Below are positions 3,238-34,384 of a stretch of DNA of 58,303 nt, piece by piece; position 1 is the first letter of the stretch; each line of letters starts with the position of its first letter. A program made the position numbers and the translations under genes. Where the stretch lies: NCBI GenBank assembly GCA_903873585.1, contig CAIQOV010000055.1, positions 1 through 58,303 of the forward strand, given 5' to 3'. The notes under the pieces are model-generated. The model worked only from the letters and a program-made list of their open reading frames with translations, was not told the DNA's origin and ran no database searches. This DNA comes from an uncultured Rhodobacterales bacterium (GTDB taxonomy: Bacteria; Pseudomonadota; Alphaproteobacteria; Rhodobacterales; Rhodobacteraceae).

Positions 3238-3311
3238 GCGGGCGTTGTGTAATGGTAAGACCTTAGCCTTCCAAGCTAAAGACACGGGTTCGATTCCCGT
3301 CGCCCGCTCCA
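3238..3311 (+). tRNA. tRNA-Gly (anticodon TCC)
   Basis: A complete tRNA folds here: acceptor GCGGGCG pairs with CGCCCGC, the D arm carries AATGGTAAGA, the anticodon stem TTAGC/GCTAA holds the loop CTTCCAA (anticodon TCC), the T arm is CGGGTTCGATTCCCG, and CCA is encoded after the discriminator T. It reads GGA and GGG/GGR glycine codons. Its 3' part from 3250 is repeated exactly at 4961-5023, marking it as the integration target of a mobile element. Confidence 0.97.
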
Positions 3312-3312
3312 A
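3250..3312 (+). repeat. Left copy of 63-bp direct repeat (attachment-site core in tRNA-Gly)
   Basis: Bases 3250-3312 are identical to 4961-5023. The repeat covers the tRNA from the D arm through CCA and one base beyond. A direct repeat made of the 3' part of a tRNA gene is the classical footprint of tyrosine-recombinase integration. At 63 bp it is longer than many minimal att cores, so the crossover point inside it cannot be fixed. Confidence 0.93.
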
Positions 3313-3367: not shown

Positions 3368-3670
3368 ATGCACACATCAGCCACACCACAGCATACAGTG
3401 ACTCGGGCTGGACTGCTCTATTACAACCGTCGTGTTCCTTCACACGCTAAGGAAATCTTCGGTGACTTCATCCGAATGAGGATCGACTCGCCACAAGCAG
3501 CCGAAGCCATGACCAAGCGACTCGATGCGATATGGCAGGCAGAAACTGTTACGCAAGCAGTTAGCCTCAACTCGCTAAAGGATGCCACAAACACAAAGAC
3601 TGCAAAGCTGTCACACGTGGTGAAAGAATATGTCGAGGTGAAAGGCATCCAGCATACAATAGCCTGTTGA
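3368..3670 (+). pseudogene. Tyrosine-recombinase integrase, N-terminal fragment 1
   Basis: The 100-residue reading frame starts about 55 bp after the tRNA, the usual place for an integrase gene. It contains YYNRRVPSHAKEIFGDFIRM and RLDAIWQ, which resemble the N-terminal region of phage-type integrases that begin with a YYRRRVP-like strand, and continues to VKEYVEVKG, where a core-binding domain would begin. It then stops. The catalytic Arg/His/Arg/Tyr domain is absent, so this is a fragment. Family membership is inferred from pattern resemblance. Confidence 0.6.
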
Positions 3671-4960: not shown

Positions 4961-5023
4961 TAATGGTAAGACCTTAGCCTTCCAAGCTAAAGACACGGGT
5001 TCGATTCCCGTCGCCCGCTCCAA
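4961..5023 (+). repeat. Right copy of 63-bp direct repeat (tRNA-Gly 3' part)
   Basis: Identical to 3250-3312. It lacks the 5' acceptor strand and most of the D arm, so it cannot make a tRNA. It marks the right junction of the integrated DNA. Confidence 0.93.
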
Positions 5024-8844: not shown

Positions 8845-8896
8845 CTTTCATATGTGCTCAAATATCCTCGGGGGTCCGGGGGCAGACGGCCCCCGG
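8845..8896 (+). repeat. Block-hairpin intergenic repeat, copy 1
   Basis: CTTTCATATGTGCTCAAATA and TCCTCGGG form the conserved block, followed by a perfect 8-bp hairpin CCGGGGGC-AGACG-GCCCCCGG. It sits between the convergent EamA and hisG genes, block side towards EamA. It probably also acts as a transcription stop for one or both genes. Other copies are at 12232-12294, 12515-12569, 16740-16838 and 34330-34384. Confidence 0.85.
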
Positions 8897-12231: not shown

Positions 12232-12294
12232 GGCCCCCGGAGGGTTTCACACGCTCCGGACCTCCCGTGGGATATTTGGGCACGTATGAAAGGG
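12232..12294 (-). repeat. Block-hairpin intergenic repeat, copy 2 (reverse)
   Basis: Read on the minus strand it starts CTTTCATACGTGCCCAAATA then TCCCACGGG, followed by a hairpin CCGGAGCGT-GTGA-AACCCTCCGG with a mismatch. It separates divergent hisS and slyX; the block end lies eight bases before the slyX ATG, so this copy may contribute the slyX ribosome-binding region (AAAGGG). Confidence 0.8.
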
Positions 12295-12514: not shown

Positions 12515-12569
12515 CTTTCATATGTGCCCAAATATCCTCGGGGGTCCGGGGGCAGAAGGCCCCCGGGGG
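12515..12569 (+). repeat. Block-hairpin intergenic repeat, copy 3
   Basis: The block CTTTCATATGTGCCCAAATA then TCCTCGGG is followed by CCGGGGGC-AGAAG-GCCCCCGG, differing from copy 1 at few positions. It lies between the convergent slyX and dnaE genes and probably ends transcription there. Confidence 0.85.
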
Positions 12570-16249: not shown

Positions 16250-17683
16250 ATGACGCAGGTGACGTTTTTACTGAACGGAGCCCCCGTTTGCGTTACGCCC
16301 GCAAACCCCAGCCAAACCCTGCTCGATTACCTGCGCGAAACCGCAGGGCTTAAGGGCACAAAAGAGGGCTGCAACGAAGGCGATTGCGGCGCTTGCACCG
16401 TGATGGTGACAGATGCGCAAGGCGCGCGCGCTCTCAATGCCTGCATCCTGTTCCTGCCGCAATTGCAAGGCAAAGCCATTCGCACGGTCGAAGGGCTTAC
16501 CGGCCCGAACGGCGAAGCCCACCCCGTGCAAACCGCGATGATAGCCCACCACGGCAGCCAATGCGGCTTTTGCACACCGGGTTTTGTGATGTCGATGGCC
16601 ACAGCGCAGCTGAACGGTGACGCCGACCACGACACCACGCTTGCTGGCAACCTGTGCCGCTGCACCGGCTATGCCCCCATCATCCGCGCCGCCCAAGCCG
16701 CACAAACGCAACCTGTGCCCGACTGGCTGAACGATGCGTCTTTCATACGGGCTCAAATATCCTCGGGGGATCCCAAGGGGGCAGAAAGCCCCCTTGGCGC
16801 GGGGGGGTTCGGGGGGGCGAGCAGCCCCCCCGTGTTCCGGCCTGCCAGCAGCGATGCGCTTGCAGACTGGTATCTGGCCAACCCACTCGCGACCCTGATC
16901 GCAGGCGCTACCGATGTCGGCCTTTGGGTCACCAAACAGTTGCGCGATCTTGGCCCCGTGGCATTTTTGAACGGTGTAACCGATCTGCAACAGATCGAAC
17001 GCCAAGGCGCTTTGGTCCACATCGGTGCCGGTGTGACGGTCGAAGCCCTGCGCAAAGCCCTGCTGCCTTTGCACCCCTCTTTCGCCGCCATGCTGCAACG
17101 CTACGGCTCCACCCAAGTGCGCAACGCCGCCACCATCGGCGGCAATATCGCCAATGGCTCGCCCATAGGCGATGGCCCGCCCGCGCTGATCGCTTTGGGG
17201 GCCACGCTGCACCTGCGGCGCGGGGGTGATATGCGCTCGATCCCACTGGAATCGTTCTTTCTAGATTACCGCAAGCAAGACCGCCGCGCGGGCGAGTTCG
17301 TGGCAGGCATTTCCATCCCAGCCCAAGCCCCTGCCCTGCGCTGCTACAAAATCTCCAAACGTTTCGATCAAGACATCTCGGCCCTGTGCGGCTGTTTCAA
17401 CGTGACGGTTGACGCAGGCCAAGTCACCGCCGCCCGCATCGCCTTTGGCGGCATGGCGGGCATTTCCAAGCGCGCGGCCCATGTGGAAGCGGCACTGGTA
17501 GGACAGCCGTGGTCCCTACAAACCCTAAAGGCCGCAACTGCTGCCTTTGCCCAAGATTTCCAACCCCTCAGCGATATGCGCGCCTCGGCCGACTACCGGC
17601 TTCTCACCGCGCAAAACCTGCTGACGCGGTATTTCCATGACCTGTCGGGTCAACCCGTATCCGTCCAACAGGTGCACGCATGA
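16250..17683 (+). CDS. xdhA: Xanthine dehydrogenase small subunit (Fe-S and FAD), with repeat-derived insert
   Basis: Carries electrons from the molybdenum subunit to NAD in the oxidation of hypoxanthine and xanthine to urate. The 477-residue product shows the plant-type [2Fe-2S] cysteines (CNEGDCGAC) and the second cluster (CGFCTPGF and CRCTGY) in residues 1-150, then the FAD domain with [11 protein letters not shown] and [18 protein letters not shown]. Between the domains, residues 164-196 are encoded by a block-hairpin repeat ([19 protein letters not shown] and a Gly-rich run) that stays in frame; normal sequence resumes at [12 protein letters not shown]. The stop overlaps xdhB by four bases. 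An interdomain linker insert of this size should be tolerated, but this is not certain. Confidence 0.95.
16740..16838 (+). repeat. Block-hairpin repeat, copy 4, inside xdhA
   Basis: The block reads CTTTCATACGGGCTCAAATA then TCCTCGGG, followed by a perfect 10-bp hairpin CCAAGGGGGC-AGAAA-GCCCCCTTGG and by a second hairpin GGGGGGGC-GAGCA-GCCCCCCC. It is the only copy in a coding region. The inserted length is close to 99 bp, a multiple of three, and has no in-frame stop in the xdhA frame. Confidence 0.88.
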
Positions 17684-19959
17684 CCATTGGAGCCTCTCTT
17701 CCCCACGACAGCGCGCCCCTGCACGTCACCGGCCAAGCCCGCTATGTCGATGATGTGCCCTTGCCCGAAGGGGCCTTGCATCTGGCCTTTGGCCTATCCA
17801 CCGAAGCGCATGCCGACATCACAGCGCTTGATTTAACCCAAGTGCGCGCGGCCCCCGGTGTAGTCGCAGTGTTTTCGGCCCAAAACCTGCCCGATATGCC
17901 CGATGTCTCGCCCACGGTGCATGACGAACCCCTGCTGGCGGTGGGCAAAGTGCACTACGCGGGCCAACCGGTGTTTTTGATTGTGGCGCAAAGCCACCTT
18001 CAGGCCCGCAAAGCTGCCCGTTTGGCCAAGATCACCTACGCCCCCCTGCCCGCGCTTTTGACAGTGGAACAGGCGCTTGCCGCCAATTCCCGCTTTGAAC
18101 AAGGCCCGATCATTTGGAGCCGTGGCGATGTGGCCGACATGGCCAAGGCCGCGGTGGTGGTTGAGGGCGAGTTTGAAGTGGGCGGCCAAGAGCATTTCTA
18201 CCTAGAAGGCCAAATTGCCGCCGCCATCCCGCAAGAAGACGGCATGCACATCATCGCCTCGACCCAGCATCCCACCGAAATTCAGCACAAAGTGGCCCAT
18301 GCCCTGCATCTGCCCATGTCGGCGGTGCGGGTAGAGATGCGGCGCATGGGTGGGGGCTTTGGCGGCAAGGAAAGCCAAGGCAACGCTTTGGCCGTGGCCT
18401 GCGCGGTTGCGGCCCATGCCACGGGCAAGCCGTGCAAAATGCGCTACGACCGCGACGATGATATGGTGATCACCGGCAAGCGCCACGATCTGAAAATCCG
18501 CTACAAGGCGGGGGCTGATGCCGAAGGCCGGTTGATCGCGGTCGATTTCACCCATCTTGTGCGCTGCGGCTATAGCCAAGACTTATCACTTGCCGTGGCC
18601 GACCGCGCCATGCTGCACGCCGACAATTGCTATTGGATCCCCAATATCCGCATCGAAAGCCACCGGTTGAAAACCAACACCCAATCGGCCACCGCCTACC
18701 GTGGCTTTGGCGGGCCGCAGGGGATTGTGGGGATCGAACGGGTGATCGACCATCTGGCGCACCACTTGCACCTTGATCCTGTCACCGTCATGCAGCGCAA
18801 CCTTTACGCCCCTATGGGCAGCGCCCCGCAAACCACGCCTTACGGGATGGAGGTGGACGATTCCATCACCGACCAAATCCTTGATCGCCTAATGGCAACC
18901 TCTGACTACCAAGCGCGCCGCAAAGCGGTTGCGGCGTTTAACGCCACAAGCCCGATCCTGAAAAAGGGCATCGCGCTGACGCCGGTGAAGTTTGGCATTT
19001 CGTTTACGCTGACCTTCCTGAACCAAGCCGGTGCTTTGGTGCATGTGTATCAAGACGGCTCTGTCATCGTGAACCACGGCGGCACCGAAATGGGCCAAGG
19101 GCTGAACCAAAAGGTCGCCCAAGTGACAGCGCAAGTCTTTGGGCTGACATCCGTGCAGGTCAAGATCACCGCTGCTGATACGGGCAAAGTGCCCAACACC
19201 TCGGCCACGGCGGCTTCATCCGGGTCAGACTTGAACGGCAAGGCGGCCGAGAATGCGGCCCTTGCGATCCGCGACAGGCTTTCGGCCTTTATCGCCGACA
19301 AGCATGGGGTCGAACCACAAACGGTGCGGTTCAAAGACGGGCAAGTGCGCGTCGGGGGTGAGGTTTACGACTTCGCCCGTGTCATCGCTTGGGCCTATCA
19401 AGCGCGGGTGTCGCTGTCGTCAACCGGCTTTTACGCCACCCCCAAGATCAACTGGGACAGGGTCAAGGGCCAAGGCCGCCCGTTCCTATATTTCGCCTAC
19501 GGCGCATCGGTGACAGAGGTGGTGATTGATACGCTCACCGGCGAAAACCGAATCTTGCGCTGTGATATTCTGCATGACACGGGCACTTCGCTCAACCCCG
19601 TGCTCGATATTGGCCAAGTCGAAGGGGCCTATGTGCAAGGCGCTGGCTGGCTGACCACGGAAGAGCTGGTGTGGAACGCCAAGGGCCACCTAACCACCCA
19701 TGCCCCCAGCACCTACAAAATCCCCGCCGTGTCCGACCGCCCGCCAATCTTCAACGTCGATCTGTGGACAGTGCCCAACGCCGAAGACACCGTGGGCAAA
19801 TCGAAAGCCGTGGGCGAGCCGCCGTTTAACCTTGGGATTTCGGCCTTTATGGCGATCTCACACGCGATTTCGGCCTGTGGGCCAGCCTATCCGGCGCTAA
19901 ACGCGCCTGCCACGGCAGAGCGGGTCTTGATGGCCGTGCAGCGGGTGCAAGATGTTTGA
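17680..19959 (+). CDS. xdhB: Xanthine dehydrogenase molybdopterin-binding subunit
   Basis: Catalytic molybdenum subunit. The 759-residue protein has the cofactor-binding motifs of the family: [11 protein letters not shown] near residue 223, [10 protein letters not shown] near 344, [11 protein letters not shown] near 467 and [13 protein letters not shown] near 710, whose Glu is the catalytic base. It overlaps xdhA by four bases and xdhC by eight, so the three are co-translated. No signal peptide, as expected for a cytoplasmic XdhAB enzyme. Confidence 0.96.
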
Positions 19960-34329: not shown

Positions 34330-34384
34330 CTTTCATACTTGCCCAAATATCCCACGGGGGTGCGGGGGTGTGAAACCCCCGCGG
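34330..34384 (+). repeat. Block-hairpin intergenic repeat, copy 5
   Basis: CTTTCATACTTGCCCAAATA then TCCCACGGG, followed by GCGGGGGT-GTGAA-ACCCCCGC. It lies inside the pentose operon between two co-oriented genes, so if it terminates transcription the aldehyde dehydrogenase gene would need its own promoter or read-through. Confidence 0.83.

Follow-up and report, generated by a model that had tools for sequence, protein, structure and literature searches.

In-frame copies of a dispersed palindromic repeat in the xanthine dehydrogenase genes of Rhodobacterales

The window, a stretch of 58,303 nucleotides on contig CAIQOV010000055.1 of an uncultured Rhodobacterales bacterium, contains the xanthine dehydrogenase (XDH) small-subunit gene xdhA (16250..17683, + strand), which was identified from the ORF list and from the TIGR02963 model (580 bits over residues 4–463, passing the curated cut-off of 467 over the full length). 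It is followed by xdhB (17680..19959, + strand) and by an XdhC-type gene starting at 19952. XdhA consists of a 2Fe-2S domain and an FAD domain, and the segment between Fer2_2 (residues 79–149) and FAD_binding_5 (from residue 195) contains an in-frame copy of a dispersed repeat (16740..16838, + strand) that forms residues 164–196, their codons occupying nt 16739–16837 and being free of stops. The copy is composed of a head, CTTTCATACGGGCTCAAATATCC (16740..16762, + strand), which is the conserved unit of the repeat family, and two hairpins, the first (16773..16797, + strand) with a 10-bp stem (16773–16782/16788–16797) and a 5-nt loop, and the second (16811..16831, + strand) with an 8-bp stem (16811–16818/16824–16831) and a 5-nt loop. 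The predicted minimum free energy was −54.8 kcal/mol (z −2.44), a value equalled by 5 of 200 shuffled sequences. An earlier note had described an insert of about 99 bp, in frame, with no stop and with two hairpins, at the linker between the iron-sulfur and FAD domains; sequence, ORF, folding and domain borders agree with this description.

Both flanks of the element are coding-like (0.30 bits per codon before and 0.31 after; 0.32 and 0.35 in a repeat scoring). In an AlphaFold2 model based on a shallow alignment of 31 sequences (mean pLDDT 76.9), residues 164–193 fell below a pLDDT of 50 and formed the longest of six such stretches. The xdhB gene of the window is free of the repeat; in many relatives it holds a second in-frame site, in the opposite orientation.

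Further copies were found elsewhere in the window. One copy outside the called ORFs (8845..8896, + strand) has its head 3 nt beyond the upstream ORF and 32 nt short of where a convergent ORF ends, and another lies 3' of dnaE (12515..12566, + strand). The head of a further copy (12271..12292, − strand) is overlain by an ORF whose upstream part scored −0.07 bits per codon, and we read this ORF as having an over-extended start. A copy between two same-strand genes (34330..34372, + strand) has its head overlapped by the drawn start of the downstream ORF. Two features of other kinds were also observed. The 3' part of a tRNA-Gly gene (3238–3311) recurs 1.7 kb away as an identical copy of 63 bp (4961–5023). 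Few coding-like ORFs lie in between, one of them of 100 aa (3368–3670), and the two repeats (3238–3312 and 4961–5023) look like the attachment repeats that would flank a small integrated element or what is left of one. A SAM/SAH riboswitch (RF01727, 56.9 bits) lies at 1893–1941.

To characterize the repeat family, we searched the genome to which the window belongs. BLAST with the 121-nt stretch around the xdhA copy returned 16 further matches, with E-values from 1.7e-14 (over 91 nt) to 6.1e-4. The head pattern CTTTCATA-N6-CAAATATC, allowing up to three mismatches, occurred at 124 sites in the 3.2-Mb genome, as compared with 6 for the reversed pattern. The stretches around 100 listed places of these 124 were examined, and exact heads, including that of the xdhA copy, were counted by eye at 73 of the 100. 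Two copies outside ORFs (L002, and L203, the latter with one head mismatch) likewise consisted of a head followed by two hairpins over approximately 95 nt. The consensus of 99 own-genome copies, in which the head is partly fixed by the search patterns, was conserved at positions outside those fixed (1.9 bits at position 6, 1.9–2.0 at positions 10 and 11, and 2.0 at position 22) and fell to 0.7 bits or less from position 30 onward. The family has a conserved head of approximately 22 nt, behind which comes a G-rich stem region that forms one or two hairpins. These matches bear out the claim that a repeat known between genes sits inside xdhA, and they supply the genome-wide match to intergenic copies on which the note had made its claim depend. 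The element had no Rfam match at the gathering threshold.

Few copies of the family are coding. Among 102 own-genome sites examined, 17 lay in drawn ORFs and 85 outside. Both neighbors were contained in the stretch for 82 of the non-ORF sites, and these neighbors were convergent at 28, tandem at 50 and divergent at 4. Fourteen of the 17 ORF-overlapping sites were rejected as coding copies and assigned to over-extended starts, because the upstream parts scored −1.51 to 0.08 bits per codon. Coding-like flanks deep in a gene were found only for xdhA and L024, and the latter was rejected as a chance three-mismatch match. A stricter call with a codon model designated 2 of 87 scorable own-genome sites as coding-through, namely xdhA and L181 (upstream score only 0.13); the second site changed with the model, being L202 and then L181, and we took both as spurious. 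This call recovered all 70 of 70 known XDH copies and, when random positions were taken from window genes that had been held out, 255 of 260; a model trained on XDH genes recovered 236 of 250 positions in non-XDH window genes. These figures describe the recovery of true coding positions rather than false positives. The xdhA copy is therefore an exception in its own genome, since the remaining copies are not convincingly coding deep in genes; with regard to the search for other coding copies that the note had proposed, xdhA was the sole convincing case among the 87. At another of the 17 sites (L010, around 1479–1522), an ORF takes its final residues, up to the stop, from a repeat copy, which forms a C-terminal tail.

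We then extended the classification to other genomes. Gene calling trained on long ORFs yielded false coding copies from antisense frames in G+C-rich genomes and was replaced by a codon model built from known genes, with controls. With this model, for which XDH genes served as the training set in all genomes but our own, we detected coding-through copies at 3 of 33 sites in Kandeliimicrobium (G331; xdhA, xdhB and the doubtful L273), 2 of 19 in Epibacterium (G333; xdhA and xdhB) and 2 of 23 in Tranquillimonas (G334; xdhA and xdhB). In two sets that are biased by the choice of loci, the counts were 1 of 15 in Gemmobacter (G332, partly chosen; xdhA) and 2 of 6 in G109/G278 (chosen; xdhA and xdhB). 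BLAST of plasmid records gave 103 places in 47 records. Considering the best place of each, 45 were without an annotated gene, in a gene table that is incomplete, one lay in a hypothetical protein of 60 residues and one in a photolyase. The last is a DNA photolyase on plasmid pORIO5 of Cereibacter azotoformans (L315, 1940–3307), in which the in-frame copy is oriented as in xdhB (PPEDIFARMK). XDH is accordingly the main coding host seen, though not the sole one.

Next, we compared xdhA and xdhB among relatives, using 16 genomes of the genus and the best 80 of 563 loci from named genomes. The genus genomes contained 17 matches, all free of stop codons. In named Rhodobacterales, the element was identified by DNA criteria in 34 of 78 scored xdhA linkers (L119 and L122 were left unscored because of a linker too short) and in 40 of 77 scored xdhB loops (L074, L081 and L083 unscored). 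Cultured carriers include Rhodovulum kholense (L093) and Roseovarius tolerans (L102). Of the 75 genomes scored for both genes, 19 had both elements and 19 had neither element nor hairpin. The xdhB site, a loop before TTPYG, appeared as a group of minus-strand matches in a both-strand scan of the 80 loci; the counts of that scan, 106 against 8 hits, overstate the excess because many of the 106 arose by chance, with three mismatches, in conserved codons of dnaE and xdhB. Orientation differed between the genes and was nearly invariant within each: all 34 xdhA copies were in the coding orientation and none in the opposite one, and 40 xdhB copies were in the opposite orientation, with one weak match in the coding orientation (L125). 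The core lay in a single phase in 30 of 33 xdhA and 37 of 37 xdhB copies, and a clade of three (L094, L105 and L114) had the xdhA core in another phase. In a sample of the class, none of 22 parsed XdhA linkers, 21 of them from other families, carried the element by the same criterion, and 5 of 27 were unparsed; L324 of this sample is a distant XdhA of our own family, and L320 contains the core word but lacks a hairpin. The earlier note had envisaged a single captured copy whose segment would be absent from related XdhA. Capture is real, and some relatives do lack the segment; however, many have a repeat copy of their own at the same place, and a second site exists in xdhB.

At the protein level, many linkers contain translated repeat copies such as FILAQISSG followed by GADSPP or GQTAP, and linker length varies widely in the family. 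One linker, from a genome of the genus (L051 in G002), spans 148 residues between its Fe-S and FAD motifs, with the hairpin-2 part expanded into tandem GASSPPGPGTTA-like units. The hypervariable XdhB loop that can hold the element also shows further recurrent blocks (DLTSRGA, YGGAHSP and variants of each) in L066–L068, L084, L094, L100, L110, L113 and others. The XdhA of R. capsulatus aligns at the linker through AQLSSG and RGQTAP, an agreement at the protein level only, and a closely similar peptide in L045/L063 is encoded by element-like DNA. The structure of R. capsulatus XDH has been solved, with entries 1JRO and 2W3R; because the enzyme has this copy-like peptide, existing structures may already show a copy.

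Variable length and the R. capsulatus alignment would be expected if the linker were a native protein segment whose likeness to the repeat arose by chance or by convergence. We regard such an origin as barely credible, because the match is at the DNA level to copies outside genes (the E-value of 1.7e-14 above), because the heads follow the genome, as described below, and because codon usage in the linkers is aberrant. In rows chosen by the core word, as were those of the synonymous-recoding and head-agreement comparisons, GGG accounted for 89 of 146 Gly codons in element-bearing linkers and 179 of 1304 in the remainder of these genes. The corresponding counts of ATA among Ile codons were 32 of 58 and 13 of 715, an excess that is partly by construction. 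The repeat family, the coding flanks, the domain borders and the low-confidence model stretch together back the view that a non-coding repeat has become protein sequence in the manner of the Rickettsia palindromic element (RPE).

The strong hairpins and the location of other copies near gene ends raise the question of a function at the RNA level, with the xdhA hairpins pacing translation or terminating transcription between the domains. Folding of the element-bearing linkers exceeded that of synonymous recodings slightly (median z −0.80), as compared with control windows in the same genes (median z −0.35) and linkers without the core (median z 0.15). Values below −2 were obtained for 4 of 33 element-bearing linkers, yet also for 7 of 99 control windows, and for 1 of 46 linkers without the core. 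The T run of an intrinsic terminator is absent behind the hairpins of the window copy, where GTGTTCC follows, and many relatives manage without the element. Since the comparison with synonymous recodings yielded little, we claim no RNA role, and the proposal that the hairpins slow translation found no clear support; we consider an RNA-level function very improbable.

The distribution of the element bears on how it reached these sites. On a FastTree tree of 85 rows computed without the repeat-bearing loops (3 of 88 rows were dropped as too gappy or incomplete, and a few near-identical pairs such as L041/L056 and L045/L063 are included), at least 17 changes are needed for xdhA and at least 18 for xdhB, so that one gain implies many losses. 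Such patchiness suits a hot spot, at which a still-mobile repeat would have entered one permissive place in xdhA and one in xdhB in many independent events. The copy 3' of dnaE at 12515 fits this as well, being present in one sister genome (G014), decayed in a second (G007) and absent from a third (G001), with the alignment interrupted there in G012; the family is hence labile. Repeated insertion is less easily reconciled with an orientation and phase nearly fixed per gene, given that non-coding copies lie both ways beside genes, or with degenerate xdhA linkers (L040/L055, L046, L062 and L076) that look like old copies. We treat it as the main rival to an old insertion followed by gene conversion, and as possible though on balance unlikely.

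To examine how coding copies relate to the other copies of the same genome, we compared head versions. The pattern TTTCWT-N8-AAATATCC occurred in 129 of 292 genomes of the order, and the reversed control in 0; the N8 part varied by genome among the matches listed, and it varied likewise among the genomes of the genus. In 16 genomes, the xdhA and xdhB heads agreed at 9.62 of 12 variable positions within genomes and 6.92 between genomes, and none of 100,000 permutations, which ignore kinship, reached this level. When compared with all other xdhA heads, the xdhA head was closer to its own xdhB in 6 of the 16, tied in 4 and less close in 6, and the two heads were plainly unlike in L064, L079 and L092. 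Compared with the non-XDH heads of several genomes, XDH heads lay nearest to those of the genome that carries them in 6 of 6 cases for xdhA and 4 of 4 for xdhB, with small margins for xdhB of G333 and G334 and with head pools partly shaped by selection: those of our own genome and of G003 (the first 29 listed) came from version-bound patterns, and most G332 loci beyond the first seven were hand-picked for one head version. In G331, where a nearly version-free pattern was used, 29 of 32 sites read CCATCTTTGCTT, with variable hairpins behind. The commonest head of G333, AAATATCTCGGGG, is present in both XDH copies, and its XdhA consequently reads ISRG where many others read ISSG. In Gemmobacter nectariphilus DSM 15620 (G332, L133), the search pattern matched 121 sites. 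This single genome contains at least three versions of the head (CTTTCGCCTTGATC, CTTTCATCTGTCC and CCTTTGCCTTTT), and its XDH copies have the third, CCTTTGCCTTTT.

Heads that match the local family would follow from recent insertion at a hot spot. They would also be expected if the coding copies were working DNA sites, maintained by selection, for a trans-acting factor that reads the head (a recombinase, a nucleoid protein or an uptake protein) and with which the versions drift; the constancy of the G331 head in front of variable hairpins, and versions that differ by genome and are common to coding and non-coding copies, agree with this. The frequent losses from xdhA, however, imply that a site there is not needed, and the shared inner stems described below are explained by exchange alone. 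As an account of the coding copies, selection as factor sites appears improbable. The broader proposition that the head is the site of a putative order-wide factor of drifting specificity, with the xdhA and xdhB copies still live sites, is doubtful, if somewhat less so; were it true, linker residues of a conserved enzyme would be set by a non-coding DNA dialect instead of by protein function.

Evidence of exchange came from the inner hairpins. The xdhA and xdhB copies of L106 have identical inner hairpins, and a genome-wide search allowing three mismatches placed this hairpin at those two sites only; in L093 it likewise occurs at two places, in xdhA and xdhB only, with two loop bases differing. 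The two sites are approximately 2.1 kb apart and inverted. Gene conversion between xdhA and xdhB, or one-way copying from gene to gene, explains these shared stems best, and inner stems common to the two genes only argue against independent insertions at a hot spot. Common inner stems also connect some non-coding copies of G331, for example two within L275, and L257, L265 and L274. The head match suggests that XDH and non-coding copies may have been exchanged as well.

Taking these data together, we consider it somewhat more probable than even that an old in-frame insertion at each site has persisted as a tolerated loop, its sequence being rewritten through gene conversion. According to this scenario, a repeat copy would have entered the interdomain linker of xdhA early in the sampled lineages, and another copy, in the opposite orientation, would have entered the xdhB loop, likewise early. 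Both insertions would have been open in the right frame and tolerated because they lengthened flexible loops, probably with little effect on the enzyme. Many copies would later have been lost or have decayed, and in those kept, gene conversion with other copies from within the genome would have replaced the sequence, as a result of which the linker peptide would follow the head version of the genome.

We compared the element with known repeat systems, for which the literature covered was that of open-licence PMC papers; in these we found no earlier description of the repeat in Rhodobacterales or in xdhA. In-frame insertion of RPE is reportedly credited to papers by Ogata from 2000, 2002 and 2005. 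The element resembles REP sequences in that its hairpin repeats adjoin gene ends and are mostly non-genic. In the parts of the sources available to us, REP and RAYT-linked palindromes are described as hairpin-forming repeats located close to gene ends and rarely overlapping with genes (PMC12306157), with the tags GTAG and CGTC (PMC3733652). By contrast, our own-genome consensus, CCCTTTCATACgTGCcCAAATATCCC, contains neither tag, and a search of the own genome (assembly 95% complete) for a mobilising enzyme with the Y1 transposase (RAYT) model PF01797 gave no match; matches at E up to 0.001 were obtained in 7 of 41 genomes searched. Enterobacterial RU and ERIC sequences and other MITEs are, as far as the portions seen describe them, small intergenic repeats with open frames that have been fused into genes (PMC2759123, PMC2229807), from which our element differs in its head-plus-hairpin architecture. 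The DNA uptake sequence dialects of Neisseriaceae, in the excerpts consulted, are genome-specific versions of a short repeated word that also occurs within genes, in thousands of copies (PMC3630211). Genome-specific versions of a short word, also in genes, are found here too, whereas the head sites number 124 and hairpins are part of the unit.

The closest counterparts are RPE and the protein-coding palindromic repeats of Wolbachia, which the accessible parts of two reports describe as dispersed, both intergenic and in frame in conserved enzymes, and tolerated there (PMC2229807, PMC10969869); in R. conorii, 44 occurrences of RPE in genes unrelated to one another are reported (PMC10969869). The repeat studied here is likewise a palindrome found both between genes and in frame within genes. 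It differs in that a single convincing coding copy was found among 87 scorable own-genome sites, rather than many in unrelated host genes, and in that the coding copies found are dominated by xdhA and xdhB, plus one photolyase, at fixed positions, in many Rhodobacterales and with genome-specific heads. Thus, these elements are close in kind to RPE as protein-coding palindromic repeats, but are order-wide and concentrated in one enzyme. They present the same enzyme site filled, decayed or empty across dozens of lineages beyond Rickettsia and Wolbachia, and with two sites in one operon and genome-specific versions, the tolerance of an enzyme for palindromes becomes testable, as do continued exchange between coding and non-coding copies and spread where no REP-type transposase was found.
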